Shown: positions 1-17,293 of the stretch, one piece after another
Numbering within the stretch: the first letter of the stretch is position 1
Layout: the number at the start of each line of letters is the position of its first letter
Origin: Nitrospirota bacterium
GTDB taxonomy: Bacteria > Nitrospirota > Thermodesulfovibrionia > Thermodesulfovibrionales > UBA6898
Reading direction: 5' to 3'
Assembly: GCA_012026685.1 (NCBI GenBank)
Contig: VEOY01000001.1
Coordinates: 1-38,668, forward strand
DNA: 38,668 bases
Program-made: the position numbers and the translations under genes
The notes under the pieces: model-generated
Database searches by the model: none
Told to the model about the DNA's origin: nothing
Seen by the model: only the letters and a program-made list of their open reading frames with translations

Positions 1-647
1 GTCTTCCCCGACATTCCCGACTTCAGGCTTACACTCAGGCCTTTTGCTGTTTTTTCAACAGGATGGAAGGATACGTTGGATACGGCAAACTCTTCCATGG
101 TGTTGAGACTGCTGAAGGGTTTATTTACGCTGTCGGCATGACACCGGTAGCAGATCTCGGACTCGTTTTCCGCAACCTCCTTTTTCGAGCCTCTCCGGTC
201 GTATCCAGGAGCGCCCTGAAGAACGTTGTCCTTTCCGACAGCATGCGGCGCATGGCAGTCGAGGCAACTGACATGCCTTGGCTTTGCACCGGTTTCCTCA
301 GGCATTTTTTCGTTGCCCCTGTGATATCTGGCGGTATCGATCACGGGATGTTTGTACCTTTTGAACATGGCAGAATACACTTCTGACGAGGCACGAATAG
401 GCCCGTCCCCCATGGGACTGTGACAGCTGAAACAGAGCTCAGGCACATCCTTCCTCAGCATCGCGCTGCCCGGCCTGCCGTGCCCTTTATGGCAGGCGCC
501 GCATCCGAACTCATTGACGGACAGGTCCAGATGCGTAGGCGTTACTCTCGCTCCGGCAGCAAGCGAGACGAGGCCTGTAAGAACAGACATTATAACGAGC
601 AGTTTTACCGGACTACCACCAATCTTTTTCATAGCAGAGCCTATCAT
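1..647 (-). CDS. Multihaem c-type cytochrome, 3' end cut by window edge
   Basis: This reading frame is open from an ATG at 647 to the left edge, so about 215 residues are visible and the C terminus is missing. GGAGG lies 8 bases before the ATG, which supports this start; an internal ATG at 632 begins MKKIGG and is a possible alternative. A signal peptide (hydrophobic KLLVIMSVLTGLVSLAAG) is followed by four CXXCH haem-binding motifs: CGACH, CFSCH, CLDCH and CYRCH. The spacing and the CLDCHAPHA pattern fit doubled-CXXCH cytochromes. It is the last visible gene of the operon that starts at the outer-membrane barrel, 17 bases after the tetrahaem cytochrome. It is exported to the periplasm or beyond and probably carries electrons. 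The total haem number is unknown because the gene is cut. Confidence 0.88.
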   Translation of the reverse strand, partial: MIGSAMKKIGGSPVKLLVIMSVLTGLVSLAAGARVTPTHLDLSVNEFGCGACHKGHGRPGSAMLRKDVPELCFSCHSPMGDGPIRASSEVYSAMFKRYKHPVIDTARYHRGNEKMPEETGAKPRHVSCLDCHAPHAVGKDNVLQGAPGYDRRGSKKEVAENESEICYRCHADSVNKPFSSLNTMEEFAVSNVSFHPVEKTAKGLSVSLKSGMSGK

Positions 648-664: not shown

Positions 665-1507
665 TCAACAGGGCCCGCTATGGCAGGCAGTGCAGAGCGC
701 CGACCAATTCGACCAGTTCGTTGTACCGTGATATTTCGAGGGAGGCCCTGTTCCAATACCCGGGATCACGAGAAAATCCGTATTATTATTGTGAGGGTCA
801 TGGCAGGATGCGCACTGCACGCCCTCAAAGTAATTCACACCGGCAGGCGTTGTCTTCAGGAACCCGTTGGAACCGTCATTATACGTATTGTTCGTGGGCT
901 TGAGCTTGACCCTCGGGTCAGAAGGCGGATATACGATCGAATACTTTCCGCTGCCCGGAGTGCATGCGGTATTTTTCGCTGTTATGAGAGTGTTGTTCAC
1001 CGGCACTGAGATCGGATGCGTGCCCGACAGGTTTATCCCTATATATCCGTAGGCAGTTGGGGGCATTGCTCCCGATCCGCTGACCCCGACCATGAATACG
1101 GATCCCGTACTGCCCGGCCCGGGAAGATTCGCGAGGGACCCGATAGCCACTGTCCCATCATGACAGCTGAGGCAGAGTTTCGAACCAAGGTCAGGCTGCT
1201 TGACCGTCGTGATCAGATTGGGCCAGGTTGCTCCTGTCGGAAGACTATAGACCTGCGTGCTCAGGGTATGGTTCCACAATGGCGTCTTGTTCGACCCGTC
1301 CTTCAGCGCGCTGTGCGGCGTGTGACAGAACACGCAGATCTCATCGACGTTGGTGGAATAAATGTTCCTTGTTATCGGCGCGGTAGGAGCCGTCGAGGAA
1401 AGGTTGTGCCTTGTATCACGAATACCCGCAGTCCAGGCTGTCCCGGCAATAGCCACAAACGAAACAATGATCAGCACCAGTATGCCGCATCGGAACAAAC
1501 TTCTCAT
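665..1507 (-). CDS. Secreted tetrahaem c-type cytochrome
   Basis: This 280-residue protein has an N-terminal signal peptide (hydrophobic residues about 8-24, ending near TAWTAG) and four CXXCH motifs at about residues 58 (CVFCH), 112 (CLSCH), 232 (CASCH) and 272 (CTACH). It is a small periplasmic or outer-surface electron carrier. The N-terminal pattern EICVFCHTPH followed by PLWN is shared with the cytochrome at 5807-6499, so the two are paralogues. The long middle section (about residues 120-230) carries no haem and is rich in Gly, Pro, Asn and Thr. The start overlaps the stop of the upstream NHL gene by 4 bases (ATGA) and has GGAG upstream, which indicates translational coupling. A haem partner inside a porin or a soluble shuttle are both possible; the sequence does not decide. 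Confidence 0.9.
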   Translation of the reverse strand: MRSLFRCGILVLIIVSFVAIAGTAWTAGIRDTRHNLSSTAPTAPITRNIYSTNVDEICVFCHTPHSALKDGSNKTPLWNHTLSTQVYSLPTGATWPNLITTVKQPDLGSKLCLSCHDGTVAIGSLANLPGPGSTGSVFMVGVSGSGAMPPTAYGYIGINLSGTHPISVPVNNTLITAKNTACTPGSGKYSIVYPPSDPRVKLKPTNNTYNDGSNGFLKTTPAGVNYFEGVQCASCHDPHNNNTDFLVIPGIGTGPPSKYHGTTNWSNWSALCTACHSGPC

Positions 1508-2592: not shown

Positions 2593-2603
2593 TGATATGA
2601 ACT

Positions 2604-3545
2604 TCAGGGGACCGATATCCTGGCCCCGGACCTGAGATCTTCAAGCAGTCTGCTCTTCAATTCCTTCTCTCTCTTTTGCTGAATTTCCTTTTTCAGCTTT
2701 TCCCTGACCTCTTCAAAGGCGAGCTGCCGCGTCGGCAATTTAGTTTCAAGATAAAAGATGTAATACCCGTAGATCGTCTCGATGACGCCGGTCATTTCGC
2801 CGGGGTCGACATTGACCAAGGCCTTCTCTATCTCGGGCAGGAGCATATCCCTGTGCAGATAGCCGACATCCCCGCTCTTGTACTTATAATCGTCCTCGGA
2901 AAACTCCCATGCCAGCAGTCCGAAGTCTTCTCCCTTTTTTGCCCGTGCAAGCACTTCCTCCGCCTTTTCCTTCTTCTTGGCCCTCTCCTCTTTCGTCGCA
3001 TCCGCCGGGACCTTGAAGAACATCTCCCTCAGCTTCCACCGTTCCGGGGCAAGGTACTTTTCCCTGTTCGCTTCATAATAGGCCGCAAGGTCAGCGTCGC
3101 TGATCGCCGCCTTCTTTACGACCTCGGCATCAAGGAACTGCTGCACGATATTATCGCGGGAAAGCTGCTGCTTTATGCCCTGCTCTGTCAGTCCTGCCTT
3201 CGCAAGTGCTTCATGAAATTCCTTGTCTGACTTGAACTGCGCCCTCATTCCGGCAAGCTTATGCTCCACTGTTCCTTCATCCGGCTTGATGCCCTTTTTT
3301 TCCGCAGCCTGATATTGCAGTTCCTTGTCTATGAGCTCCTGAAGGGCTTCTTCCCGCAATGCCTTCATCTTTTCCTCGGACACGGTCTTATGAAACGCTA
3401 TATACGGTATTTTTTCCGCCATATATTTCTGCAGATCAGCATTGCGGATCTGCGCTCCGTTCACCGTCGCGACCACCGCATCGTCCGCAAGCGCCGCAAC
3501 AGCAAAACCCAGAAGCAAAAGAAAACCGATAACAGCCTTTTTCAT
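2604..3545 (-). CDS. Periplasmic PpiC/SurA-type peptidyl-prolyl isomerase
   Basis: This is a 313-residue exported parvulin-family chaperone. The signal peptide is MKKAVIGFLLLLGFAVAALA. An N-terminal SurA_N-like helical region contains VNGAQIRNADLQ and is followed by a charged, possibly coiled-coil stretch. The parvulin domain spans about residues 165-275, with the typical FGLLAWEFSED, GDVGYL and YGYYIFYLE segments. Its likely job is folding outer-membrane or periplasmic proteins, and the barrel gene directly upstream is the obvious client. The start at 3545 is preceded by AAGGG at 6 bases. The frame extends to an ATG at 3572 that overlaps the barrel stop (TGATG), but no ribosome site precedes that codon and the extension would spoil the signal peptide. 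PpiC-type genes beside NHL and cytochrome genes also occur in Desulfuromonadales. Confidence 0.9.
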   Translation of the reverse strand: MKKAVIGFLLLLGFAVAALADDAVVATVNGAQIRNADLQKYMAEKIPYIAFHKTVSEEKMKALREEALQELIDKELQYQAAEKKGIKPDEGTVEHKLAGMRAQFKSDKEFHEALAKAGLTEQGIKQQLSRDNIVQQFLDAEVVKKAAISDADLAAYYEANREKYLAPERWKLREMFFKVPADATKEERAKKKEKAEEVLARAKKGEDFGLLAWEFSEDDYKYKSGDVGYLHRDMLLPEIEKALVNVDPGEMTGVIETIYGYYIFYLETKLPTRQLAFEEVREKLKKEIQQKREKELKSRLLEDLRSGARISVP

Positions 3546-3571
3546 GATCATCCCTTCGTGCGCGTCAGTCA

Positions 3572-5389
3572 TCAGAACAGGAACGGTCTTGTCAGCCGCA
3601 TGGTGAGCCTGTGCTGCCGCTCTTCCACATTGTTCTCCCTCTCGTCAACCTTGTACTCATATTCAGCCGTAAAATAGAGCTTCCTCAGATTCCAGCTGAA
3701 GGACGGGCGTATGCCATAGCTCGTCAATTTCTCCCCGTTCGTCGTCCTGCTGTATCCCGACTCCAGCCTCAGCAGTGTCCGCCTCCAGGGCGACATCGCT
3801 ATGGTGTTGCTCAGCAACAGCCTGGTAGTTTTATCCGTGTTCGATACAGACCCTGCACCTACCGCATGGTCCATCCCGCTCCCCCGCGCAAGGGAAGCGG
3901 ACAGGGAGAACTGGACCTTGTTGAAGAACACGGTGGTCACCGTATTGTCCCATGTCGCGTAATCAAAGGTGTCGCTGTTCGTGCTCCTGGTATATTCCAG
4001 TCTCGAGGTGAACACGGTATTGCGTACACTCCCCTGCAGACCGATCGTGGCAGTATGCTGTGTCGTGCCGACGGTATTGCTCGCAGAGAAGTATCTGCTG
4101 TCATAAAATTGTTTGCCGTCATCCTCGAAACCGGATACTTTGTGGAAATCGTACCGGGCGAAGAACTGCAGGTTGGGCGAATAGATGTAGCGGGACTCGG
4201 CGCCGAGATTATACGCGCTGTAACTGTTGAAGAAGACGTCACCAAACACGTTCAGCGATATCCTGTCCGTGAGCATGGTCGAGGCAGAGCCGGTACCCCG
4301 CAATGCATAATCATAGGTGCTGGTCCTGTCATTGTAACGCGTTACGGCGCCCACGGAATAGGTGGTCCTGATCTTGCCGAAATCGCTCGTAGACCCGATC
4401 CTCGCCGATCCGTGATAGACCTTATAACCGAAACTGTTGTCCACGTTCGTATACAGAGCGGTCACCTGATAGTTCCAGAGCTTGTTCTTCAGGGTCAGAT
4501 ATCCATAGTAGTTCAGGTCCATGTTCAGTCTTTTCTGGTTCAGAAAATCCTCACGCTGGCGGTCCTCGTAGTCGACCAAAAAATGGAACGTGTCGGTCTT
4601 GCCCACATTCGTATTCACCTGAAACATGCCGGTGTATTTCGTCTCGTTGTCCTTTTCAAAGGCCTGGCCAGAATTATCGTACTTCATGTACTCCAGTTCA
4701 ATGAAATAATTGCTCCGTGTAGACTTCGTATCAAAATTGCCGTTCATTCTCACGGCGGCAAGATAGGATGTGAGCGTATTGTCTTCATCGTTAAAGCGGT
4801 AGGAATACCGTTCGCCCTCGAACTGATAGACCATCGGCAGGATCCGGTCGAGAAAATTTCCCTTTATCTGGGAGGTAAGACCTTTGAGCCCGACGTTGTT
4901 GGCATTTTTATCCGCGTCATCGTCACTGTTGTTATTGTTGTTGTTATTGTTGTTATTGTTGTTGTTGTTATTGTTGTTGCCGTTCTTGTTCGCCCTGACC
5001 ATGGAATTATAGACCGTCCAATCCCTCATGTTCGTAATGGTGGGTACGTTCCTCTTCCGCTGATAGGTCAGTATGACACTCTCGTGATCACCCTGGTAAT
5101 TGTCGTAGTCATAATACTCTGCCCGCAGGATCACGTTCAACGGCTTCCTCTTGAAAAAATCGAGATTGAGAGAATATCTCTTTTCGTCAGGCGCGGCTGC
5201 GGAACCGCTGCTCGTATACCAGTAGAACCCGAGATCGTAGGTAAGGAAGTTAGGCCTTACGAAATAACTTTTGACATTGAGGTCATAGATCTGGCCGAAT
5301 ACGCTCGTTCTTTCCGAGTAATCAGCGCCATCGCCCCTTCTTTCGAACTTCCGGGTCTCGTAGTTGAACTCGATGGAACCGTAGATCAC
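3572..5389 (-). CDS. Large outer-membrane beta-barrel protein (porin-like), 5' end disrupted
   Basis: The frame encodes about 605 residues of alternating hydrophobic and polar strands rich in Tyr, Phe, Thr, Asn and Arg, and ends in TRPFLF, the C-terminal phenylalanine recognised by the BAM machinery. Many strand pairs with Asp/Asn-rich loops are visible, so a barrel of 20 or more strands is plausible. That size matches porins of porin-cytochrome conduits. One loop contains 17 consecutive Asn residues (4928-4978) followed by SDDDADKN. The only in-frame conventional start is a GTG at 5389 with no signal peptide and no ribosome site. Reading upstream in frame gives a plausible mature N terminus (SSSGTAEALILDPLER) and then an amber codon at 5477-5479, so the annotated start is doubtful. 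The gene is first in an operon with PpiC, NHL and cytochrome genes. Confidence 0.8.
   Translation of the reverse strand: MIYGSIEFNYETRKFERRGDGADYSERTSVFGQIYDLNVKSYFVRPNFLTYDLGFYWYTSSGSAAAPDEKRYSLNLDFFKRKPLNVILRAEYYDYDNYQGDHESVILTYQRKRNVPTITNMRDWTVYNSMVRANKNGNNNNNNNNNNNNNNNNNSDDDADKNANNVGLKGLTSQIKGNFLDRILPMVYQFEGERYSYRFNDEDNTLTSYLAAVRMNGNFDTKSTRSNYFIELEYMKYDNSGQAFEKDNETKYTGMFQVNTNVGKTDTFHFLVDYEDRQREDFLNQKRLNMDLNYYGYLTLKNKLWNYQVTALYTNVDNSFGYKVYHGSARIGSTSDFGKIRTTYSVGAVTRYNDRTSTYDYALRGTGSASTMLTDRISLNVFGDVFFNSYSAYNLGAESRYIYSPNLQFFARYDFHKVSGFEDDGKQFYDSRYFSASNTVGTTQHTATIGLQGSVRNTVFTSRLEYTRSTNSDTFDYATWDNTVTTVFFNKVQFSLSASLARGSGMDHAVGAGSVSNTDKTTRLLLSNTIAMSPWRRTLLRLESGYSRTTNGEKLTSYGIRPSFSWNLRKLYFTAEYEYKVDERENNVEERQHRLTMRLTRPFLF
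4928..4978. repeat. Trinucleotide (AAY) repeat encoding 17 asparagines in the barrel gene
   Basis: Seventeen consecutive AAC or AAT codons lie on the minus strand and encode a polyasparagine tract in a probable surface loop of the outer-membrane barrel. Because the unit is three bases, slippage would change loop length without shifting frame. Confidence 0.9.
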
Positions 5390-5476
5390 ATAGCGTTTGT
5401 AATAGAGCGCCCTCTCAAGCGGGTCGAGGATCAGCGCCTCGGCAGTGCCGGAAGAAGACAGCGCACCGGAACACGG

Positions 5477-5569
5477 CTAAAAAGAGAACAGGTCTCCCAT
5501 CCATGACATGGGCGCGCAAAGAAATATGCATGCCCAGACCGAGAAGAAAAGGACCTTCAGCTTTTTCAT
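5477..5569 (-). other. Signal-peptide-like 30-codon leader ending in an in-frame TAG ahead of the barrel gene
   Basis: An ATG at 5569 opens a reading frame whose N terminus (MKKLKVLFFSVWACIFLCA) looks like a Sec signal peptide. It runs to a TAG at 5477-5479. The same frame then continues without a stop into the barrel at 5389. No good ribosome site precedes the ATG. In another frame, an ATG GAT GGG start also gives a signal-like stretch (RPVLFLAVFRCAVFF) that would join the barrel after a single-base shift. Either way the barrel currently lacks an intact export signal. The cause could be a nonsense mutation, a small indel, a sequencing or assembly error, or readthrough. Bases 5570-5709 between this and the sigma-54-like site are AT-rich and show no other gene. 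Confidence 0.6.
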
Positions 5570-5709
5570 GCTGCCGCGCTGTTCCAGAATTCAGCCTCGA
5601 TACGGATCTTTTTCGTCTGTCCAGCAGAAAATGTCGTCATTTTTTCGGAGCAAACAATCTTGCAATAATACCATATGAGCAGTTTTTTTATACATTATTT
5701 TTATTTAAA

Positions 5710-5725
5710 AGCAATTATTATGCCA
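5710..5725 (-). promoter_or_regulatory. Sigma-54 (RpoN)-type promoter of the barrel/cytochrome operon
   Basis: On the minus strand the bases read TGGCATAATAATTGCT. This matches the sigma-54 consensus TGGCAYR-N4-TTGCW at every defined position, with the -24 GG and -12 GC at correct spacing. Transcription would start near 5699, about 130 bases before the signal-peptide ATG at 5569. The site lies directly downstream of the terminator of the preceding cytochrome gene, a sensible place for a new promoter. Activation would require an enhancer-binding protein; none is encoded in the window. Confidence 0.58.
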
Positions 5726-5753
5726 CTACAAAACTTTATTTTTTCATCAGCTC

Positions 5754-5786
5754 AAAAAAAAAGGCAGACCCTTTCGGATCTGCCTT
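5754..5786 (-). terminator. Rho-independent terminator after the tetrahaem cytochrome
   Basis: On the minus strand an 11-bp stem (AAGGCAGATCC pairing with GGGTCTGCCTT, including one G-T wobble) closes a GAAA loop and is followed by a run of nine T. It begins 21 bases after the stop of the cytochrome at 5807-6499, so it ends that transcript before the sigma-54-like promoter of the next operon. Confidence 0.9.
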
Positions 5787-5806
5787 GAAGTCAGATGCAA
5801 CATCAA

Positions 5807-6499
5807 TTAGCCTTTGGTCACATGGCATGCAATACACATTGCGGAACCGGCAGTTGCCTGCCTCAGGAAGTTCACTTCGTTCGCACCAGCTGCATAAGCC
5901 TGGTTGTGCACGTCATGGCATGTTGCGCACTCGATCTTGCCTGCGAACGTCGGCATCGCGGTGCCAGTGATGTTGTTGTTACCAGCATCAATAGCAGGAA
6001 AGCCGTTGTTCTGAAGGTCGGTACCCGGGACATACGTGAAGCCTACCGGATGATCGTTCGTCAGGGCATTGTTGTTGTCGAGAGCACCCCAACCGATGTT
6101 GGAGAACGAATTCGCTCCGATCGTGTTGGTAGCCGAAGCTCCCAGAGCATACGGAGCTACGTTCCCAACACCTGAGCCAGGACCATTGACAATGGACGAA
6201 GCAACACCATTGTGGCAGGTCATGCAAGCCAGAGACTGGGCGCCGAGAGCCAGAGCCGGACTGTCCATCTCGAACGTTGCGTTAGAATAATAACGATACG
6301 TCGGAGATGTCTGTGTCCTGTTCCAGAGCGGACCGCTCGTTGAAGCAACAGCCGCGTGCGGCGTGTGGCATGCGACGCAGATCTCTCCGGTTCCACCTGA
6401 AAGGTCATGCTGTGTACCGGTAAGGCCGGCACCAGCAGCGAAGGATACCGCGGCAAAAGCGAGCACTAAACAAAAACTCAAGCCAAGGATTCTTTTCAT
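5807..6499 (-). CDS. Secreted tetrahaem c-type cytochrome (paralogue of the one at 665-1507)
   Basis: This 230-residue exported cytochrome has a clear signal peptide (MKRILGLSFCLVLAFAAVSF) and haem motifs at residues 41 (CVACH), 92 (CMTCH), 191 (CATCH) and 222 (CIACH). The mature start HDLSGGTGEICVACHTPH and the PLWN motif are shared with the product of 665-1507. The haem-free middle (about 100-185) is rich in Gly, Ala and Asn. The ATG at 6499 has AAGGGGGTG about 7 bases upstream, a strong ribosome site; an in-frame ATG at 6535 is less likely because the signal peptide would be internal. It appears to be a single-gene transcript, with a sigma-54-like promoter upstream and the terminator at 5754-5786 downstream. 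Its role is probably periplasmic or extracellular electron transfer. High expression is suggested by the strong ribosome site and terminator. Confidence 0.92.
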   Translation of the reverse strand: MKRILGLSFCLVLAFAAVSFAAGAGLTGTQHDLSGGTGEICVACHTPHAAVASTSGPLWNRTQTSPTYRYYSNATFEMDSPALALGAQSLACMTCHNGVASSIVNGPGSGVGNVAPYALGASATNTIGANSFSNIGWGALDNNNALTNDHPVGFTYVPGTDLQNNGFPAIDAGNNNITGTAMPTFAGKIECATCHDVHNQAYAAGANEVNFLRQATAGSAMCIACHVTKG

Positions 6500-6565
6500 A
6501 ATTTTCACCCCCTTCCCATAGTAAAATGGACTCACAATAAAATATGAGTTTCAGTTAAGAATTAT

Positions 6566-6580
6566 GCAATATGCATACCT
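6566..6580 (-). promoter_or_regulatory. Sigma-54-type promoter candidate of the tetrahaem cytochrome
   Basis: On the minus strand the bases read AGGTATGCATATTGC, followed by A. The -24 GG, -12 GC and full TTGCA are at the same spacing as the site at 5710-5725, with mismatches at the first T and the C of TGGCA. Transcription would start near 6554, giving a leader of about 55 bases to the ATG at 6499. An overlapping sigma-70 reading (TTGTAG, 18 bases, CATAAT) is also possible. Confidence 0.42.
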
Positions 6581-6737
6581 GTAACTACAAATTAAATTAA
6601 TTTAATAATACACATTATTTCTGAGCCAATCAACCATTTTTCCCCATCCACTGTACTATAAATTCAATAATTATTGCGCGCTTGAGCTATCGTTCATGCG
6701 AAATTTCACTCAACAGGATGCCTTTTCACCCACCAAA

Positions 6738-7799
6738 TTACTGTCCCTTCTTCGCACCTCCAAGGTATTGGAAGACCTGTATCCTCTTGTTGAACGTGTC
6801 GGTCACATATATCCTGTCCTTCTCGTCAATGAAGATCGTGGTCGGAAGCAGCAGGTTGCCGAGCTGCCGACCTGATGTAGCGGCAAACGTGAGGAGCTGG
6901 TTCGTTGCTTCGTCGAACACCTGAAAATTGCCGAAATCAATATCAAGGCCATACAGATGACCCTCTGAGTCTAGCGCCACTCCGATGATCTTCGAAAAGT
7001 TGCCGAAGCCCGACCCCACGCCCTGGCCGATCTTCTTCAGGAACTTCCCCTCAGGCGAGAAGACCTTTATGTAGCGGCCGAACATGTCGGACACATACAG
7101 CTTCCCGTCCTTTCCCACAGCAACCGACGAGGGGACATTGAAGCCGTCGTCCTCATCGGAACGGTCTCCCTTTCCGATGGTGAAGAGCAGTTTGCCGGAA
7201 TAGTCGAAGGCCTTGACCGAATGCAGTTTTGTGTCGCAGACATAGACCGTCTGGGTCCGTGTGTTGAGAGCAAGGGCAACAGGCCGCAGGAACGTGCCGG
7301 GGTTCTGCCCGATCCCGAACTTCAGGCTACCGTTTTCGACGTCATAGACAAGTACGCTCTTGCTGCCGAGGTCTGCGACGAAAAGATATCCCCGGTCATT
7401 GTCAATGGCAAGTCCCATGGGAATGGTCGCCCGCTTGACCGCGGTCTCTCCTATGGTCGTGAACTTCTTGTGCTCAAAGTCGAGCTTGAAGACCTTCAGC
7501 AATTGCGTGTCGGAGACAAAGATATTGCCCTTCCTGTCAGCAACGATGCCGTGCGGCCTCTGCAGGAAGGTCGGCCCCTCTTCCCCGATGACGCGGAGGA
7601 GGGTGTTTTCCTCTTCTACATCCTTGCTGCCCCAGTAGACGGCGACGAACTTTATCCTCGGCTCGTCAGGAGGGGCCGGCCAGACAAGCTTGTCGAGCTC
7701 TTCCTGCGCGGGCTTAAAAGGCTGAGGCGCAGTCGCGCAGCCTGCTACAAGGACCATAAAAAACATGAACACTATGGCGAAGGAAAAATATTTTCTCAC
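6738..7799 (-). CDS. NHL-repeat beta-propeller lipoprotein
   Basis: This 353-residue lipoprotein has the signal sequence VRKYFSFAIVFMFFMVLVAGC, whose lipobox LVAGC is canonical. The mature N terminus carries VWPAPPDEPRIKFV, the proline-rich motif common to all three NHL proteins here. Blades follow, with patterns such as RPHGIVADRKGNIFVSDT, VPSSVAVGKDGKLYVSDM and LPTTIFIDEKDRIYVTDT, six in total. A GTG at 7799 with GGAGGT 9 bases upstream gives the neat signal peptide and is preferred. An ATG at 7823 overlaps the stop of the upstream NHL gene (ATGA) and would add eight residues. It is the last gene of the 11-haem cytochrome/NHL/NHL unit. Membrane-anchored scaffolding or redox-partner binding is inferred; no enzyme motif is visible. 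Confidence 0.88.
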   Translation of the reverse strand: MRKYFSFAIVFMFFMVLVAGCATAPQPFKPAQEELDKLVWPAPPDEPRIKFVAVYWGSKDVEEENTLLRVIGEEGPTFLQRPHGIVADRKGNIFVSDTQLLKVFKLDFEHKKFTTIGETAVKRATIPMGLAIDNDRGYLFVADLGSKSVLVYDVENGSLKFGIGQNPGTFLRPVALALNTRTQTVYVCDTKLHSVKAFDYSGKLLFTIGKGDRSDEDDGFNVPSSVAVGKDGKLYVSDMFGRYIKVFSPEGKFLKKIGQGVGSGFGNFSKIIGVALDSEGHLYGLDIDFGNFQVFDEATNQLLTFAATSGRQLGNLLLPTTIFIDEKDRIYVTDTFNKRIQVFQYLGGAKKGQ

Positions 7800-7819
7800 G
7801 ATCGTCCAACCTCCGTAAT

Positions 7820-8872
7820 TCATTTCAGAATTTCAAAAACCTGCACTCTCCGGTTCAACTGATCAGCAACATAGATGCGACTGAACTGCCTGTCTATGCA
7901 GATCCCTGCAGGGAGAGAGAATTCTCCGGGTCCGGTCGTGCCGGACGCACCGATAAAGAGCAGCAGCCTTCCCATGGGATCGAATATCTGAAAATTGTTG
8001 AACGCAGCATCAGTGACATACACATTGCCCATGAAGTCCGTCGCGACGCCCTTGGGCCGGGAGAAGGTCCCGGGCTCTGCCCCGAGCCTGCCGAATTCCC
8101 TGATGAATACCCCTTCGCCGTTGAACACCTGCACCCGGAAGTTGGCGCTGTCCACAACGTAAAGGTTTCCCATGTTGTCCATGGCAATGCCCATGGGATA
8201 GTTGAACATGCCGGGCCCCGGACCTCTGCCGCCGAAACCAAAGAGGTGCTTGCCGGAGAGGGAAAAGACTTCCACCCGGTGGGTCCTGCTCGAGACAACA
8301 TATATGCGGCCCTTCGCATCGTCAATGACCATGCCCGAGGGGTTGTCCAGGACCTCCTTGCCGAACGACGTGATCAGCCTGTCGGTACTGCTAAAGACCA
8401 GGACAGCATCATGCCCGGTATCCGCGACATAGATGTTCTGCATGGCGTCAACCGCAACGCTCGAAGGCACACGAAGGGCCTGTTCCTTCTTCCCGATCAC
8501 GGTCACCTGCTTGAGAGCTTCATCAAAGATAAAGACCGCATGCTTCAGCGTGTCCGCCACATACACCCTGCCGGACCTGTCAGTTGCGACACCATACGGT
8601 TTCAGAAGGTCGTCGGACGGCCTGTCCCCCGCTATGATATCAAGAGAACCGGTCTTCCAGTAATCAGCCTCCCCGAAAAGACTTTTCACGTACCTGATGC
8701 GGGGCTGTTCAGGGGGCAGAGGCCAGACATAGCTTCCGACATCAGGCCTGGTCTCCTGCTCAGGAGCACACGCGAACAGCATTGGCAGGGCAACGGCTAA
8801 AAAAAAGATGCGCCCGAGCAGAGACGCGGGGAGGCGCGCCATGTTGCGGCTGCCTTTGCTCACAGCTCTCAT
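7820..8872 (-). CDS. NHL-repeat beta-propeller lipoprotein
   Basis: This 350-residue exported protein has a hydrophobic segment ending in LPMLFAC, a usable lipobox, followed by VWPLPPEQPRIRYVKSLFGE. This N-terminal motif is shared with the NHL proteins at 1504 and 6738. Six NHL blades are visible, for example KPYGVATDRSGRVYVADT, YPMGIAMDNMGNLYVVDS and LPAGICIDRQFSRIYVADQ. The ATG at 8872 lies 2 bases after the stop of the 11-haem cytochrome and is preferred; an upstream ATG inside that gene and an ATG at 8842 are alternatives. The pairing of a multihaem cytochrome with two lipid-anchored propellers suggests they form or assemble one complex at a membrane surface, but that is inference. Confidence 0.87.
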   Translation of the reverse strand: MRAVSKGSRNMARLPASLLGRIFFLAVALPMLFACAPEQETRPDVGSYVWPLPPEQPRIRYVKSLFGEADYWKTGSLDIIAGDRPSDDLLKPYGVATDRSGRVYVADTLKHAVFIFDEALKQVTVIGKKEQALRVPSSVAVDAMQNIYVADTGHDAVLVFSSTDRLITSFGKEVLDNPSGMVIDDAKGRIYVVSSRTHRVEVFSLSGKHLFGFGGRGPGPGMFNYPMGIAMDNMGNLYVVDSANFRVQVFNGEGVFIREFGRLGAEPGTFSRPKGVATDFMGNVYVTDAAFNNFQIFDPMGRLLLFIGASGTTGPGEFSLPAGICIDRQFSRIYVADQLNRRVQVFEILK

Positions 8873-8874
8873 GA

Positions 8875-9798
8875 TCAATATTTGTGGCAATATTGACACA
8901 AGCCCATGGTAGAAGCTGCCTTGTATCTGAAGAGCTTTCCCCAATCAGAGCTGTGGGGTTCATGACAACTGCCGCAGTAGAACTCACTGTCCTTTCGCAC
9001 CGGGTCCTTGACGACCTTTTTGCCCTTTTTGACCGACCCGAGATAATGCCCTCCGCGTGCAGAGAATCCGGTCACGGCATGCGGCGTTTTCATAACTTCA
9101 GCATGACATTCGAGGCAGACGCTGATCGGTCTTTTCAGAAGAAGTTTCTGCTCTTCCGAAGCATGGGGAGAATGACAGCCGGCGCACATGCCCCCCGCGA
9201 CCGGCGCATGGACGGTTTTTCTGGTGAACGGCCCCTTATCGTGACAGGTAAAACAAAGGTCAGGCATGGAGGCTTTCAGTAATTTTTCCTGCGCGGACGC
9301 ATGGGGGTCATGGCATGAAGTACACAGACCGATGCTGACAGGGGAATGGACGACGGCCCCGGAAAACTTAGCTTTATCATGACAGGTGAAACACAGGTCC
9401 GGCATCGGAGTGATCAGGAGCTTTTCATTGTCCGATGCATGGGGATTGTGACAGGAAAGACATCCCATCTGAAGCGCTGGATGAACGGTCTTTTTGCTGA
9501 AGACACCCTTGTCATGACACCCGTAGCATAACGCCGGCGGTTCCGAAGCAAGGCCTTTGGCAACCTTGTTCGTTTTCTTGTGGGGAATGTCCGCTGCATC
9601 TATCCCGGAATGACATGACGGGCATCCCATCTGTACGGCCGCATGACGGTTCTTTTTTGCTGACAGGTCGCTGTGGCAGGTATCGCAGTTCACCTGCTCA
9701 GCCCGGCACTCAACAGTATTTGAGGCGATAAACCAGGCAGGCATGACAAGAAGAACGAAGATCCAACTGTTCTGTAGGGCATGATATGAATGCTTCAT
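8875..9798 (-). CDS. 11-haem doubled-CXXCH cytochrome
   Basis: This 307-residue secreted cytochrome contains eleven CXXCH motifs: CDTCH, CPSCH, CYGCH, CLSCH, CFTCH, CTSCH, CFTCH, CAGCH, CLECH, CGSCH and CQYCH. The core is a tandem repeat of about 40 residues with the pattern LCFTCHDK, a His-containing VHxPV, then CxxCHxPHAS and KLL, typical of the Paired_CXXCH family. The signal segment is SWIFVLLVMPAWFIAS. The C-terminal part (SCHEPHSSDWGKLFRY) is clearly related to the end of the 15-haem protein at 20270. The ATG at 9798 is chosen because a consensus promoter at 9806-9835 places the transcript start at or next to this codon; ATGs at 9807 and 9822 lie within the promoter. It heads a three-gene unit with two NHL lipoproteins. 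Its role is long-range periplasmic or surface electron transfer. Confidence 0.92.
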   Translation of the reverse strand: MKHSYHALQNSWIFVLLVMPAWFIASNTVECRAEQVNCDTCHSDLSAKKNRHAAVQMGCPSCHSGIDAADIPHKKTNKVAKGLASEPPALCYGCHDKGVFSKKTVHPALQMGCLSCHNPHASDNEKLLITPMPDLCFTCHDKAKFSGAVVHSPVSIGLCTSCHDPHASAQEKLLKASMPDLCFTCHDKGPFTRKTVHAPVAGGMCAGCHSPHASEEQKLLLKRPISVCLECHAEVMKTPHAVTGFSARGGHYLGSVKKGKKVVKDPVRKDSEFYCGSCHEPHSSDWGKLFRYKAASTMGLCQYCHKY

Positions 9799-9805
9799 GC
9801 CTTGC

Positions 9806-9835
9806 ATTATAAAGAGTATCATTTTTTGATGTCAA
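9806..9835 (-). promoter_or_regulatory. Consensus sigma-70 promoter placed on the start codon of the 11-haem cytochrome
   Basis: On the minus strand TTGACA (9830-9835) and TATAAT (9806-9811) are separated by 18 bases. Both hexamers match the sigma-70 consensus exactly. The expected start of transcription, about 7 bases after the -10 box, falls at 9798-9800, which is the A of the ATG or just before it. The mRNA would be leaderless or nearly so. Confidence 0.75.
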
Positions 9836-9847
9836 ACTTTAACGTTA

Positions 9848-10807
9848 TCACTTTCCGTCGGGATCTTTGGCACAACGGAATCCCACAGTGTTCGAAAGCG
9901 TCTCGGGAGCAGACGCATACCGAGCACCGACCCTTAGTCCGGCAGGCAGGGAGACCCAGGACCCTCCACGAACAACCTTTTTCCTGCCCTTTTGAGGCCC
10001 CTGAGGATCTTCTGAAGAAGATGACCGGTAATATGTTTCGTCGTACCAGTCAGAACACCATTCAGCGACATTTCCTGCCATGTCGTAAATGCCGACGGTA
10101 TTCGGAGGGTAATTCCCCGCTTCCCTGAACGGGGGGGGCAGGGTATTGTCTGACCATCTCTTGCCGAATACAGGACCGCTTTCGAGCGGAGGCATGGTAT
10201 CGCCCCAGGGGAAGTCAGCATGCTCAAGGGTCCCCCGGGCAGCTTTTTCCCATTCCGCTTCTGTCGGCAGTCTTTTGCCCGTCCATCTGCAGTATGCGTC
10301 AGCCGCCTGCCATGACACACTGACGACCGGATATTTTTCGAATCCCCTGACCGGCAGATATCCGCCGCCCTTGAATATGATCTCGGATGGGTACCATGAA
10401 GACCGCTCTACCCGTTCGAGGTCGTCCCGCAGCACGATCCACTGCCAGCGCACGCTGTTTTTCCCCTCGGCCGGTCTGACCGCGTTCAGAAAGACGGCAA
10501 ACATCTCGTTCGTGACCTCATGGCGGTCTATGGAAAAAGAGCGAAGGGTAACCCTATGGCGAGGTTTTTCATTGTCAGGATATTCATCTCCTTTGCTGCC
10601 CATATCGTAGGCTCCGGCAGGGATGAGCACCATGTCAGACATGCCGGCGCCACCCGCCGGATCCTGCGCGGCCTGGGCCACCGGCATCATTGAACAGACA
10701 AAAAACAGCAACACTGAAAGGCCCAATCCACTGCTTTTCGTCGTCCTTGCCGGGCTGTCCTGCAACAACGCCGTCCGCCCATAAAGCTTGCTTTTAAAGG
10801 TGATCAT
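9848..10807 (-). CDS. Exported formylglycine-generating-enzyme-like (SUMF1-fold) protein lacking the catalytic cysteines
   Basis: This 319-residue protein has a basic N terminus, a signal segment (LSVLLFFVCSMMPVAQAA) and one complete FGE-sulfatase/SUMF1 domain from MVLIPAGAYDMGS (about residue 59) to TVGFRCAKD (about 307). Conserved blocks are NEKPRHRVTL, HEVTN, PVVSVSWQAADAYCRW, RLPTEAEWEKAARG, GNVAEWCSDW and VVRGGSW. True formylglycine-generating enzymes have a cysteine pair shortly after RGGS; here that stretch reads WVSLPAGLRVGARY with no cysteine. It is therefore probably not a sulfatase activator but a binding or structural version of the fold. The start at 10807 is chosen because longer forms would overlap the divergent gene at 10902. 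It lies just upstream of the cytochrome/NHL unit on the same strand, with 49 bases between them that contain the next promoter. Confidence 0.87.
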   Translation of the reverse strand: MITFKSKLYGRTALLQDSPARTTKSSGLGLSVLLFFVCSMMPVAQAAQDPAGGAGMSDMVLIPAGAYDMGSKGDEYPDNEKPRHRVTLRSFSIDRHEVTNEMFAVFLNAVRPAEGKNSVRWQWIVLRDDLERVERSSWYPSEIIFKGGGYLPVRGFEKYPVVSVSWQAADAYCRWTGKRLPTEAEWEKAARGTLEHADFPWGDTMPPLESGPVFGKRWSDNTLPPPFREAGNYPPNTVGIYDMAGNVAEWCSDWYDETYYRSSSSEDPQGPQKGRKKVVRGGSWVSLPAGLRVGARYASAPETLSNTVGFRCAKDPDGK

Positions 10808-10901
10808 CTTCTCCGGCAATCTGCAACCCTCACCAATTTTCACTATATTACCATACCAAGCATTTGATTTTTGAATATGACTCTTAATAAAATTAAAGAC
10901 A

Positions 10902-11891
10902 ATGAATAAGATATCCGCTTCCATCTTTGCATTGCTGCTTGTGCCGCTCATGGGATGTTCGCTCCTCGAAATGCGGCATGATCAGTCCGGAGATATGTCA
11001 TCCGCTACCCCCCTCGCCGGGAGGGAGGCCCTTTCGGTCCGGCACCTGAGGGACATTCAGCCCGGGCCCGGAGACACGGCAAAGACCGATGATGCGTACA
11101 TTATCGTGCATCCGTCGTATTATCTCTTTTTCCAGAAAAAGCCTTATGTCATTGAACCGTCGGATACGAAGAATATTACGCAGTCATTTGCTGAAATGGA
11201 TTTCCCTGCGGAAAATACCATGCTCAACCTCATGAAGTTCTATGAATCCCGTGAGATGGCCTTTCTTTCGTCAGCGCGGAACGACCAAAAACTGGTCATC
11301 CTGGTCATTCCGGGAAAATACGAGCGATCCCGCTCTTATCTCTACAAACCGGACGATGAGAATGATGCTGATGAATATGCCCGTTATATCAACGAGGCAA
11401 CATTCGGCGCAGATACCGTCCTCTATCTTGAGTCTCAAGATACGAACAGCGGCAAGATCGCCAGGAAGGACATGGCGACCCTGATCCAGTATCTTAAGCA
11501 AAAAAACGTGCAGAACATATTTATCGGCGGAGGGTATGTGGGCAGATGTCAGGAAGAGTTTTACCGATCCCTGTCAAAAGAATGGCCGGAGAGCAGTATT
11601 GCGCTGATGCCCGAACTCTCGGCTTTTTCTCCGAATGACCTTACCGACGCAACGGCCAAGATGCTTCTCATGCCGGATATGAAACTTAACGTGACAGCGG
11701 CCAATTATTTTATCAGGAACGGCGGGATAAAGAAGCTCAGCATCAAGCCGAACCTTAAGACAGCTTCGGACATCAAGGTATCACTCGTCGCGGAAAAAAC
11801 CGACCCCGCAGCCGATAATTCGCATAAGTCAGCAATGGAAAATACCGGGAAGCTTAATGACCCCGCCGTTGAAAACAACGAAACGCCTTAG
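10902..11891 (+). CDS. Unrecognised lipoprotein
   Basis: This 329-residue protein has a short signal sequence ending in a lipobox (MNKISASIFALLLVPLMGC). I do not recognise the mature domain. It looks like an alpha/beta fold, with predicted strands such as DAYIIVHPSYYLFF, KLVILVIPG and VQNIFIGGGYVGRCQEEFY; the last resembles a glycine-rich ligand loop. The C-terminal 35 or so residues are polar, low in complexity and probably disordered. It is one of only two plus-strand genes, is divergent from the SUMF1-like gene (the two start codons are 94 bases apart), and is followed after 47 bases by the membrane protein at 11939, so those two are probably co-transcribed. No strong ribosome site precedes the ATG. 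The function is unknown. Confidence 0.75.
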   Translation: MNKISASIFALLLVPLMGCSLLEMRHDQSGDMSSATPLAGREALSVRHLRDIQPGPGDTAKTDDAYIIVHPSYYLFFQKKPYVIEPSDTKNITQSFAEMDFPAENTMLNLMKFYESREMAFLSSARNDQKLVILVIPGKYERSRSYLYKPDDENDADEYARYINEATFGADTVLYLESQDTNSGKIARKDMATLIQYLKQKNVQNIFIGGGYVGRCQEEFYRSLSKEWPESSIALMPELSAFSPNDLTDATAKMLLMPDMKLNVTAANYFIRNGGIKKLSIKPNLKTASDIKVSLVAEKTDPAADNSHKSAMENTGKLNDPAVENNETP

Positions 11892-11938
11892 GTCATGACT
11901 GAGCAAGATCCCTATTTCCGACACTGGCCGCCGGGCAA

Positions 11939-13717
11939 ATGATCATGAACATATCCTTATTGAAAAAAAGCATTATCGTTCTGCTGTTCGTATGTGCCGT
12001 CTGTTTCACTCTTCTGGCTCCGATCCGCGACAATGATCTCTTCTGGCATCTCGCAACGGGAAAATGGATCGCTGAACATAAGATGCTGCCTGAGACAGAC
12101 CCGTTCTCGTACACAACGTCACTTAAGGCCCAGGAAGATTTTTTCAGGGCAAAGATGATCCTCACGCAGTACTGGCTTGCCAATCTTGTTCAGTACGGCA
12201 TATTTTCCTTCTCCGGTTTTTATGGCATCGTCGCGCTCAGGGTCCTGATCGCTCTGCTGACCCTGCTCACCGTGCTCGTCCACGTGAGGAGAAAGGGTAT
12301 CCCTGCATTGACAGGGCTTCTTTTATTGCTTCCTCTCGCCTTTGTCCTCGGCAATTACAAAGGGGACCGCCCCAACCAGATGTCATTTCTGTTCTTCGCG
12401 CTCTTTTTATTTCTCTGCGACACGTTAAAAAAAGGGGGGAAAAAAGGATATCTGCTGCCGGCAGTATATATTCTGTGGGCCAATGTACATGGCGGTTTTA
12501 TTCTCGGCGGAGTCATTGCGATACTTTTCATTGTGTCTGAAATGCTCAGGACTACGTTCGATAAAGAGCATCTTCTTGACAGGAAACTGGTCTTCGTCAT
12601 GGCACTGACGTTTATCGCAGGATTCCTGAACCCGAACGGTTACAATGCGGTTTACAGCATGTTCTTCGAGGTATCCAAACTTCATGCGGCCAGCATCGGA
12701 GAACACAAAACCGCATTTTATTTCACTCATGTAGGCACCTATTTTTATGTCTGGACCTTGGGATTGTCTCTCCTCCTGCTCATCATGTATCTGGCATCCC
12801 GGATATTCCCCGGATATTCTTTCAGAAGAGATCGTATCCCCGCTCTCTTTGATGAATTCCTGATCCTGGTGGCTCTGGCTGCATTGTCCGTTTCTGCCAT
12901 TCGTTATATACCATTCCTGGTTATTGCTCTCCTACCCATGGCCGCTCCTCTTTTTTCCGGAAAATTCCAGGAGTATGTTGAGAGACTGTCAAAATATTTC
13001 ATTCCGGAGATCATCCTTGCCGCAGCCTCGGTATGGATGATCGCGGTCTCATACAATGTCACCATTTTCAAGAACAAGCCGGTCAGCTCCTATTATCCTG
13101 ACGACGCGGTACAGTTCATAAAACAGAGAGACATCAAGGGCCATTTCTTCAACTATTATGACTGGGGAGGATATTTGATCTGGGAGTTCTACCCGGAGAA
13201 GTTCGTATTCATCGATGGACGTGCTCTCAGCCTGAAGACGGCCCTGGCAGCCGAAGCTGTCACATTAAATGCTGTCGAAAAGGTCATGGACAAGCCTCTG
13301 TACAAGGCCATACTCGATTCCTATTCCGTGCGGCATATCCTCATTCCGGCGGTCAACTACCTTGGGGATATCAATTACATCCTGAAGCCCCTTGTCGATG
13401 ACCCCGAATGGCATCTTATCTTTGTCGGAAGGAACTCCCTTATTCTTACGCGCGACCGGATAGAACCATCGTACCCCAAGTCTCTCTGCTACGCGTTGGC
13501 GATCGCCAACGCCCGGCAGGTTGCCGCATTTTCTCCGAACAACCCCCTGCCGTACCTGACCTTTGCCAAGGCAAATGTGTACCTGGGCGGATCAGCGAAT
13601 GCCATCAAGGGACTTGAGGAAGCCTTGCAACTGAGGCCTGGGCTGCGGGGCGGGTCTGTTGAAAAAGCGCTGAATCTTCTGAAGGCAGGAAAAGAGATCC
13701 CTGTTAATATGCACTGA
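11939..13717 (+). CDS. Polytopic membrane protein, GT-C glycosyltransferase-like
   Basis: This 592-residue protein has about 9-11 hydrophobic segments over residues 8-375, followed by a soluble C-terminal domain of about 210 residues. After the first membrane segment, the acidic motif PIRDNDLFWHLATGKWI resembles the DxD-like first loop of GT-C enzymes that use polyprenyl-phosphate sugars. The C-terminal domain includes YYDWGGYLIWEFYPEKFVF and ends in a TPR-like stretch (NPLPYLTFAKANVYLGG). Typical relatives are annotated as hypothetical or GT39-like membrane proteins. The start is either the ATG at 11939 or the one at 11945. It follows the lipoprotein at 10902 on the same strand and converges with the GT2 gene at 13757. 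A sugar-transfer role fits the neighbouring polyprenyl-phosphate glycosyltransferase but is not proven. Confidence 0.75.
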   Translation: MIMNISLLKKSIIVLLFVCAVCFTLLAPIRDNDLFWHLATGKWIAEHKMLPETDPFSYTTSLKAQEDFFRAKMILTQYWLANLVQYGIFSFSGFYGIVALRVLIALLTLLTVLVHVRRKGIPALTGLLLLLPLAFVLGNYKGDRPNQMSFLFFALFLFLCDTLKKGGKKGYLLPAVYILWANVHGGFILGGVIAILFIVSEMLRTTFDKEHLLDRKLVFVMALTFIAGFLNPNGYNAVYSMFFEVSKLHAASIGEHKTAFYFTHVGTYFYVWTLGLSLLLLIMYLASRIFPGYSFRRDRIPALFDEFLILVALAALSVSAIRYIPFLVIALLPMAAPLFSGKFQEYVERLSKYFIPEIILAAASVWMIAVSYNVTIFKNKPVSSYYPDDAVQFIKQRDIKGHFFNYYDWGGYLIWEFYPEKFVFIDGRALSLKTALAAEAVTLNAVEKVMDKPLYKAILDSYSVRHILIPAVNYLGDINYILKPLVDDPEWHLIFVGRNSLILTRDRIEPSYPKSLCYALAIANARQVAAFSPNNPLPYLTFAKANVYLGGSANAIKGLEEALQLRPGLRGGSVEKALNLLKAGKEIPVNMH

Positions 13718-13756
13718 CGCAGATAGCTGCGCAGGACTGATCATGGCAAGGGCCGG

Positions 13757-14683
13757 TCATTGATCTTCGAAGTTGATCTTCCCCTGAATAATGAACGTGG
13801 GCCGTTTTCTCGATTCATCAAAATTTCTCCACAGATATTCGCCCAGGACCCCCAGCATCAGCATCTGCACCCCTGACACAAGGAGCAGCACGACCATCAA
13901 CGATGCCCATCCTTCAACCGGCACATAAAAGATGATCCGGTTCAGGATGATAAAAAGAGCGTACAGGAATCCCGTCACCGCAAAAAGTATCCCGAGCAGA
14001 GAGATCATCCGTATCGGGAAATATGAGAACGAGACGAACGTGTCGACGAAAAGCTTTATCTTTTTCCCTAATGTCCATTTCGAGACGCCCCTTGCCCTGC
14101 TCCCCTTTTCATAGCGCACAACCGTCTGGCTGAACCCGCTCCAGAGGATAAGGCCGAAGATCGAGGTGTTCTTCTCTCCCATGCCGACGACGACGTCGAC
14201 GACTTTCCTGTCTATCAGAAATACATCGGTGCCTTCCTGAGGCATTGTCCGCAATGCAAACCGCCTGACCATCCTGTAGTAGATCCCCTGAAAGAACCTC
14301 GACGACGAATCCGCCCACGTCCGCACGCCGATAACAACCTCGTTCCCTTCCCGCCACTCTTCAATGAGCGTCCCTATCAGCTCGGGGGGGTCCTGAAGGT
14401 CGGCGGATATAAAGGCGCAGGCATCCCCCTTTGCGTAGGTAAGGCCTGCGAGACATGCAGCATGACTGCCGAAGTTGCGCGAAAATCTAATGACCCTGAC
14501 GCGGGGGTCCAGGACGGTCATTTGTTGAAGCGCTTCATATGTTCCGTCCGTCGAACCGTCATCAATAAAGATGAACTCAAAGGTGTCCCGGCCCGCACGG
14601 ACAGCGCCCGCCAGTCTTTCCAGGACAAGAGGAAGGTTCTCCTTTTCATTGAACACCGGGATAACAACAGAGATCAGCGCCAT
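13757..14683 (-). CDS. GT2 polyprenyl-phosphate glycosyltransferase (GtrB/DPM1/ArnC-like)
   Basis: This 308-residue membrane-anchored family 2 glycosyltransferase begins with SVVIPVFNEKENLPLVLERL, has the nucleotide-binding IFIDDGSTDGT and the metal-binding SADLQDPPEL (DxD-like), and ends with two transmembrane helices at about residues 225-250 and 265-290. Family members transfer a sugar from a nucleotide donor to undecaprenyl phosphate on the cytoplasmic face, making a lipid-linked donor for GT-C enzymes. The C-terminal sequence GVLGEYLWRNFDESRKRP is typical. It lies 18 bases after the acetyltransferase gene and is the last gene of the seven-gene sugar operon. The GT-C-like protein at 11939 is a natural downstream partner, although it is encoded on the other strand. 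Confidence 0.93.
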   Translation of the reverse strand: MALISVVIPVFNEKENLPLVLERLAGAVRAGRDTFEFIFIDDGSTDGTYEALQQMTVLDPRVRVIRFSRNFGSHAACLAGLTYAKGDACAFISADLQDPPELIGTLIEEWREGNEVVIGVRTWADSSSRFFQGIYYRMVRRFALRTMPQEGTDVFLIDRKVVDVVVGMGEKNTSIFGLILWSGFSQTVVRYEKGSRARGVSKWTLGKKIKLFVDTFVSFSYFPIRMISLLGILFAVTGFLYALFIILNRIIFYVPVEGWASLMVVLLLVSGVQMLMLGVLGEYLWRNFDESRKRPTFIIQGKINFEDQ

Positions 14684-14701
14684 CAGGATACCAATGCAAT
14701 G

Positions 14702-15154
14702 CTATTCATTTTTTTCCCCCTCTCCTGTCCACATCCCTATTTCCTTTTCGATGTTCCTTACAACCTTTCCGGGGACCCCGGCAACAAGGGAGTACGCGGG
14801 AATGACGGCATGCTCCGTTACCACTGTCCCGGCAGCGATAATGCTGTGGTGACCAATACGGGCGCCCATGAGGATCGTGGCATGCTCCCCGATAAATACG
14901 CAGTCGCCAACGATGGTCTCAGATGTATCCATGGCCGGATATTTCCCCTCGGTGACGCATCGTTTTGCCGTCGAATGGGTCATGATATGCACACCGCAGC
15001 TGATATTGCACTGTTTTCCTATGGTCAGGCCGCCGATGCCGTCGATTACCGTAAAAGCACCGATCCAGCATCCTTCGCCGATCTTAGGCTCATTGATGAT
15101 CCATGCATGGGGGTTATATTTGTTGTCCGGGAAGCCGTGCTCCTTACCCGTCAT
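14702..15154 (-). CDS. Left-handed beta-helix (hexapeptide) acetyltransferase
   Basis: This 150-residue protein is built of hexapeptide repeats ([IV]-G-x-x-x-x), such as IGEGCWIGAFTVIDG, IGKQCNISCGVHI and VGDCVFIGEHATILMGARIG, and ends with the usual IPAYSLVAGVPGKVVRNI. It resembles small sugar N- or O-acetyltransferases of the WbbJ/FdtC/PglD type using acetyl-CoA. The HIMTHST segment contains the likely catalytic histidine. The start at 15154 overlaps the stop of the DegT gene by 4 bases (ATGA) and has GGGAG 8 bases upstream, so a GTG at 15169 was rejected. Next to a DegT aminotransferase, the most probable job is N-acetylation of the amino group that enzyme installs. Confidence 0.9.
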   Translation of the reverse strand: MTGKEHGFPDNKYNPHAWIINEPKIGEGCWIGAFTVIDGIGGLTIGKQCNISCGVHIMTHSTAKRCVTEGKYPAMDTSETIVGDCVFIGEHATILMGARIGHHSIIAAGTVVTEHAVIPAYSLVAGVPGKVVRNIEKEIGMWTGEGEKNE

Positions 15155-16275
15155 TTCAAAAACTCCCACAGCTGATTCACGACATACATGGCCTCATCGG
15201 CCGTCAGTGTCGGATACAGGGGAAGAAGAACGGTGCTGTCGCTTATCCGTTCAGTTACGGGGAGCGACGTTTCAACATCGCTGTAGCAGCGTTCCCGATG
15301 GATGGCCATAATACCCCTGCGCGTCGCAATGCCCTTATCAAGCAGCCCTTCCATTAGGGCGTTACGGGACAAAGGAGATGAAGACAGGATTTCGATCCAA
15401 TACGACTGATAGTTGTGAAAAACCGTTTCAGGAATTTTGGGGACCCGGATGCAGGATATGCCGCTTAATTCATGGTCATAATATGAGGCGATCTGACGCC
15501 GTTTCTCAAGGATCGCATCAAGCTTCCTGAGCTGCTCAATGCCGACGGCCGCCTGTATATCGGTCATGCGATAATTGTAGCCAATCTCGGGATACTCTTC
15601 AATGATCACTTTCTTCGCCTGATGCCGTTCCATGTCCGACACGGACATGCCGTGATGCCGGAACCTCCGGAGTCTCGCGGCGACATCCGCATCATCGGTC
15701 GTGACCATGCCTCCTTCGCCGGTGGTGATGATCTTCCGGGGATGAAAGCTGAAGCAGGCGATGTTCCCGTGCCCCCCGATCCTTGTCCCTTTATAGGCAG
15801 ACCCTATCGCGCAGGCAGCGTCCTCGATGAGGATCAGACCGTGCTTATCCACAATCTCTTTGATCCGGTCAAGGTCTGCAGGAAGACCCATCTGGTGGAC
15901 CGGCATGACGGCCTTCGTCCTCTTCGTGATCGAACCTTCGATCTTCTCAGGATCCATGTTGCAGGTCCCGGGATCGATCTCAACAAAGGCCGGTCTTGCG
16001 CCGCAATGGACAACGGCATTCGCTGTCGCAATGAAAGAGAGCGAAGGCACAATGACCTCGTCACCGGAGCCGATGCCGGACACGGCAAGCGCCGCATGGA
16101 GGGCAGTGGTGCAGGACGTTGTCGCGACCGCATGCTTCGCCCCCACATACCGGGCAAATCTCTCTTCGAACTCCCGGACCAAAGGCCCCTGCGAGACCCA
16201 GCCCGAGCGTATCGCCCTGACGGCGGCCTCTTCCTCTTCAGGCCCGAGGAACGGTCTTGCGATAGCAATGTTCAC
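15151..16275 (-). CDS. DegT/DnrJ/EryC1/StrS-family sugar aminotransferase
   Basis: This 374-residue PLP enzyme transfers an amino group, usually from glutamate, to a keto-sugar nucleotide. Visible family features are SGWVSQGP near the N terminus, the cofactor-binding TTSCTTALHAAL, the EDAACAIGS block, and the Schiff-base lysine in FSFHPRKIITTGEGG (about Lys181). The GTG at 16275 is chosen because it overlaps the upstream stop (GTGA) and has GGGAG 5 bases ahead; longer forms would run far into the epimerase gene. With the SDR upstream and the acetyltransferase downstream it forms a plausible dehydratase-aminotransferase-acetyltransferase set making an N-acetylated amino sugar. The exact sugar cannot be read from sequence alone. 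Confidence 0.93.
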   Translation of the reverse strand: MNIAIARPFLGPEEEEAAVRAIRSGWVSQGPLVREFEERFARYVGAKHAVATTSCTTALHAALAVSGIGSGDEVIVPSLSFIATANAVVHCGARPAFVEIDPGTCNMDPEKIEGSITKRTKAVMPVHQMGLPADLDRIKEIVDKHGLILIEDAACAIGSAYKGTRIGGHGNIACFSFHPRKIITTGEGGMVTTDDADVAARLRRFRHHGMSVSDMERHQAKKVIIEEYPEIGYNYRMTDIQAAVGIEQLRKLDAILEKRRQIASYYDHELSGISCIRVPKIPETVFHNYQSYWIEILSSSPLSRNALMEGLLDKGIATRRGIMAIHRERCYSDVETSLPVTERISDSTVLLPLYPTLTADEAMYVVNQLWEFLK

Positions 16276-17276: not shown

Positions 17277-17293
17277 CGCTTATCCGCCTGCCC

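Follow-up and report, generated by a model that had tools for sequence, protein, structure and literature searches.

The gene for an 11-haem c-type cytochrome in a Nitrospirota genome is probably expressed as a leaderless mRNA: we estimate at roughly 80% the probability that its transcription starts at or within ca. 3 nt of A9798, that translation starts there independently of a Shine-Dalgarno (SD) sequence and that the product is an exported 11-haem cytochrome. The gene lies in the first 38,668 nt of contig VEOY01000001.1 (assembly GCA_012026685.1), the stretch of DNA analysed here and referred to as the window; the host genome (G000), of the class Thermodesulfovibrionia and the order Thermodesulfovibrionales, comprises 3.04 Mb in 213 contigs. 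The elements of the promoter region, the start site and the presumed transcription unit are:

9835-9830, minus strand: -35 hexamer TTGACA, exact consensus (sequence read directly, scans)
9822-9805, minus strand: in-frame upstream ATGs at 9822 and 9807, within the promoter and outside the predicted transcript (sequence)
9811-9806, minus strand: -10 hexamer TATAAT, exact consensus, after an 18-nt spacer (sequence read directly, scans)
9798-9796, minus strand: proposed ATG start codon and transcript 5' end (A9798; 9799-9801 possible), from geometry and homologues, the 5' end being predicted
8875-9798, minus strand: 11-haem c-type cytochrome, 307 aa from 9798, Paired_CXXCH_1 (CXXCH count, profile match)
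7820-8872, minus strand: NHL-repeat protein with a lipobox by eye; its ATG at 8872 lies 2 nt past the cytochrome stop
6738-7823, minus strand: second NHL-repeat protein, with an ATGA overlap with the preceding gene

Direct reading of the minus strand bears out the initial annotation as to the exact TTGACA-18-TATAAT promoter followed by an ATG at 9798, the two in-frame ATGs upstream and the lack of a ribosome binding site; no AGGAG-type SD precedes any of the three ATGs. The promoter agrees with the sigma-70 type, i.e., both hexamers at a spacing of 16-19 nt, at 12 out of 12 positions, and only 7 nt (GCAAGGC) separate TATAAT from the ATG at 9798, within the 5-8 nt expected for a leaderless gene. 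When TATAAT is placed at -12 to -7, position +1 is C9799 and the A of the ATG is +2. Transcription starts prefer purines, which favours A9798, and the leader of the cytochrome mRNA would therefore be 0-1 nt; if G9800 or G9801 were used, it would be 2-3 nt. The first 60 nt of this predicted mRNA show only weak folding (z +1.15).

The window contains the exact TTGACA-18-TATAAT sequence a single time, 100 dinucleotide shuffles do not contain it at all, and a promoter scan of positions 1-20000 of the window found the cytochrome promoter as the sole site matching at 12/12 positions. In the whole genome, 15 sites combine TTGACA and TATAAT at spacers of 16-19 nt, against 0 for the reversed pattern and ca. 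0.75 expected from the base composition of the window. Two of these 15 sites, those of the cytochrome and of lexA, have the ATG of a frame of at least 60 aa at 5-8 nt downstream, and the remaining 13 include SD-led genes and a tRNA.

The encoded protein contains 11 CXXCH motifs in frame, in agreement with the haem number assigned previously, and has a hydrophobic N-terminus that by eye resembles a signal peptide. It matches Paired_CXXCH_1 (PF09699) with 190.7 bits, well above the gathering cut-off of 20.6, and remains below the curated cut-offs of the decahaem models of the DmsE family (TIGR03508; 122.1 bits, cut-off 192.2) and the GSU2203 family (NF041028; 94.2 bits, cut-off 325). No SD was seen by eye before the ATG at 8872 of the first NHL-repeat gene, which is probably translationally coupled to the cytochrome. 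In the second NHL-repeat gene GGAGG precedes a GTG a few codons inside the frame, and this SD-led GTG is the likelier start. NHL-repeat matches were found in 19 out of 29 loci of one set of cytochrome homologues and in 4 out of 19 loci of a second set, two of which appear to be copies of loci of the first set. Other CXXCH genes also occur in the window. One, on the minus strand (5761-6535), has an SD-led ATG near 6499, and its start is probably listed too far upstream with the GTG at 6535; a strong site resembling a terminator lies at 5786-5761. Another encodes a second, 15-haem cytochrome (20270-21505, minus strand), where TTGACT-17-TAGTGT is followed by 10 nt to the ATG.

The sequence of events that we propose would be as follows. 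RNA polymerase with the housekeeping (sigma-70-type) factor would bind TTGACA-18-TATAAT and begin transcription at or within ca. 3 nt of A9798, yielding an mRNA that opens, or almost opens, with AUG. A ribosome would initiate at this 5'-terminal AUG without SD pairing and produce the exported cytochrome; according to passages from the literature on leaderless mRNAs, such an AUG is read by a 70S ribosome or by a 30S subunit with initiator tRNA and IF2. Both NHL-repeat genes would be carried on the same message, the first translated by coupling and the second from its own SD.

The arrangement recurs in related cytochromes. Seven out of eight genomes of the genus, including the host, contain a homologue with a -10 box 7-8 nt before an ATG that opens a signal peptide. 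Among 47 distinct homologous frames, eight (the host's own included) combine a promoter matching at least 9/12 positions, a distance of 6-8 nt, an ATG and the absence of an AGGAG-type SD, whereas another group of homologues is SD-led instead. The distance is 7 nt in L001 (the host's own), L007, L009, L018 and L161, 8 nt in L006 and L162, and 6 nt in L028; the fragment L159, too short to be included among the 47 frames, shows the arrangement of L161. L007 (TTGAAA-18-TATAAT-7-ATG) keeps 11 of the 12 promoter positions at the same distance. Five of the eight frames (L001, L006, L007, L009 and L018) open with MK. The homologues L008 and L012, which belong to the same genus, have an SD leader, L012 being the cytochrome examined in G006, the eighth genome. 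A ninth frame, L029, combines a GTG at 5 nt with an SD-led start. Over all 47 frames the excess at 5-8 nt is modest (10, with L007 counted twice, vs. ca. 5 per four-base bin elsewhere, bins that contain real promoters of leadered genes), and the homologue argument rests on the match in geometry within the genus. A very short leader seems to recur as well, as in L030, L164 and L166 the -10 box lies 11 nt before the ATG, comparable to the second cytochrome of the window.

In the tree of homologues, eleven rows (L002, L004, L005, L008, L011, L013-L017 and L019) form one group (support 83/95), in which all but L002, with only GTGAT, have an AGGAG-type SD of at least 5 nt (10/11). A second group of 16 rows (support 89/82, not starred) comprises seven leaderless rows, five with a very short leader and four others, one of which, an 8-haem row of L018, carried the leaderless label in the tree test by its name prefix. 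The leaderless L009 falls outside both groups. Start type requires at least two changes on the tree, a number as low being reached in 10 out of 500 shuffles (with the label error for the L018 row). From this grouping it follows that start type partly follows kinship and has changed more than once.

A further line of evidence comes from the spacing of starts in the genome at large. We called 661 genes, with 629 usable starts, on 784,241 bases, a sample that includes the window and amounts to 25.8% of the genome, with a crude caller that chose starts by hexamer score and missed the cytochrome, so that this gene does not contribute to the outcome. A promoter, for which the scan required both hexamers, was located 5-8 nt upstream of 31 of the 629 starts, whereas nine other four-base bins averaged 4.9 and 40 shuffles gave a mean of 2.8 and a maximum of 6. 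This leaves ca. 26 starts above background, or ca. 4-5% of the called starts. The same pipeline applied to 300 kb of E. coli K-12 yielded 1 out of 255 and no peak. An SD core accompanies 3 of the 31 starts vs. 277 of the 598 others (p 2.6e-5), a pyrimidine precedes the start in 25 of the 31 vs. 353 of the 598 (p 0.02), and ATG is the start codon in 29 of the 31. A gene-free scan of the host genome (174 promoter-like sites vs. 85 in the reversed sequence) reproduces the peak, the ATG or GTG codons opening at least 80 aa at 4, 5, 6, 7 and 8 nt numbering 6, 3, 9, 2 and 3, respectively. G014, which belongs to the same family, has a weak peak (11/346 vs. 4.3) and no clear one in the gene-free scan, and neither the SD nor the pyrimidine contrast reaches significance.

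The genes with this signature include lexA, smpB, argH, trpC and rpiB. Nineteen of the 31, chosen partly for their familiar-looking N-termini, were scanned against protein families and 17 matched (9/10 and 8/9). In at least one model the alignment begins at residue 1-5 for RpiB, UppP, TrpC, SmpB, ArgH and MoeA; for ArgD it begins at residue 2 or 4 in some models, and for LexA at residue 19 (model position 17). UppP, MoeA and an NAAT transporter do not reach the cut-offs of the models that describe the whole protein. A divergent gene pair with 83 nt between its members was also encountered in which both starts have the leaderless geometry (L118, 2098-3297, minus strand, and 3381-4160, plus strand; L135, 571-1770, minus strand, and 1854-2636, plus strand). 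In the host genome it consists of argD (a family match) and a gene with, by eye, a P-loop, and a pair with similar N-termini and spacing is present in G014. Within the window, a gene on the plus strand (10902-11891) with a lipoprotein-like N-terminus and TTGATT-18-TAAAAT-8-ATG is another leaderless candidate; it stands head to head with the gene of the FGE type located upstream of the cytochrome, the longest frame of which (to 10951) overlaps it.

The arrangement is also conserved at lexA. The pattern TTGACA-17/18-TATAAT-5..8-ATG occurs 12 times in seven of the eight genomes of the genus and never in the reversed control, and seven of these 12 sites, one in each of the seven genomes, belong to lexA as judged by a match to the LexA of the host. 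The host gene is located as follows:

Contig C2 of G000 (L031/L058): lexA, promoter 3950-3979, ATG 3986; the others are L046, L048, L049, L050, L053 and L056

Six of these genes (query included) are full length and align from residue 1, and one is a fragment. The promoter spacer of the six contains GAAC-N4-GTTC and that of the fragment AAAC-N4-GTTC, which we take to be a LexA-type box. The conserved lexA is thus probably both autoregulated and leaderless. Among 295 sampled genomes of the phylum, a site at 5-8 nt was present in 201, and one at the control spacing of 13-16 nt in 148. Summed over the class only (the other 178 of the 295 genomes lie outside these sums), sites at leaderless vs. control spacing number 23 vs. 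10 in the 14 genomes of the family (own included), 212 vs. 90 in 86 other genomes of the order and 42 vs. 13 in 17 other genomes of the class. Many genomes of family f27 have no site at either spacing.

Homologues with matching geometry, the genome-wide excess and the clean K-12 control thus support the leaderless mRNA proposed in the initial annotation and make it probable rather than proven. The accompanying remark on its rarity in this kind of bacterium finds no support, because such starts form a regular minority in this genome, and the lexA start recurs in seven of the eight genomes of the genus.

Among the alternatives, a longer transcript, produced by read-through from the FGE-type gene or from a further promoter and translated with a leader from 9822, 9807 or 9798 without a classical SD, deserves most attention, although we consider it unlikely. 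The FGE-type gene stops at 9848, a short gap before the cytochrome promoter, and since the scan of positions 1-20000 revealed no terminator-like site in this gap, a leadered read-through mRNA may exist. An upstream start also keeps some support because in-frame upstream ATGs are not confined to the host: L007 likewise has one overlapping the -10 hexamer, and in L009 and L018 one lies 12 nt ahead of the ATG. However, the gap is occupied by the 12/12 promoter, none of the three ATGs is preceded by an AGGAG-type SD, and the -10 region lacks an in-frame ATG in L006, L161, L159 and L162. Furthermore, the FGE-type gene has no tblastn match at 1e-8 in any of 48 homologous loci (flanks up to 2.5 kb) and is, therefore, not the usual partner of the cytochrome.

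It is still less probable that the promoter is real and the cytochrome gene is a short-leader rather than a strictly leaderless gene (leader of ca. 4-10 nt). Transcription start sites wobble by a few nucleotides, and a class with 10-13 nt between the -10 box and the ATG does exist, to which L030, L164, L166 and the second cytochrome of the window belong, but with a gap of only 7 nt transcription would have to begin no more than 3 nt past the -10 hexamer to give a leader longer than 3 nt. That the consensus match arose in the gap by chance and is no promoter at all is very improbable. Consensus scans do yield many false sites (26 found vs. 14.7 in shuffles), yet this is the only perfect match in the scanned half of the window, the genome holds none of the reversed pattern against its 15 sites, and L007 has retained almost the entire promoter at an identical distance. 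A leaderless cytochrome mRNA remains our preferred reading.

More tentatively, leaderless initiation might be established and inherited in this class of Nitrospirota as a second way of expressing genes, in line with the site counts of the order given above. In one group of multihaem cytochromes, a promoter abutting the start could have taken the place of the SD leader, so that the same kind of operon would be SD-led or leaderless depending on the species, possibly altering its response to ribosome or energy stress. If the leaderless reading is correct, tools that rely on the SD may misannotate the N-termini of a share of the genes of these uncultured bacteria, and the related cytochrome operons would allow naturally occurring SD-led and leaderless forms of one gene to be compared.

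Leaderless starts are already well known, and what is new here is that related cytochromes differ, some being leaderless and some SD-led. No report of leaderless mRNAs in Nitrospirota was found in the open-licence papers searched; a Leptospirillum paper uses the term leaderless for a protein, not an mRNA. In the parts consulted, PMC10783764 has Thermodesulfovibrionia in an anti-SD table beside 45, and PMC8547445 concerns Magnetospirillum. The main text of Zheng et al. (2011; PMC3160421) does not contain "Nitrospir-", and the phylum is absent from its group table, where the row "Other Bacteria" could hold it.

With regard to the protein, the cytochrome shares with PF09699 and the DmsE- and GSU2203-type cytochromes the common doubled CXXCH repeats, and TIGR03508 and NF041028 match it in part; it differs from these decahaem types in its 11 haems, its scores below both curated cut-offs and the NHL-repeat genes that follow. 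With regard to the start, the TA-led leaderless genes described by Zheng et al. (2011) have, in the part consulted, a -10-like signal ca. 10 bp upstream of the start and no SD, and form a minority of genes. The candidates reported here appear alike in all three respects, whereas the cytochrome has a full -35/-10 promoter. The -10-adjacent ORFs of Deinococcus-Thermus (PMC12340547, consulted in part) are similar in that the -10 element lies a few bp upstream of the ORF and the mRNA is leaderless, as predicted here. However, these ORFs comprise about one third of the genes of D. radiodurans and carry a TANNNT motif, while the corresponding fraction of called starts in the present genome is ca. 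4-5%, with both hexamers required by the scan.
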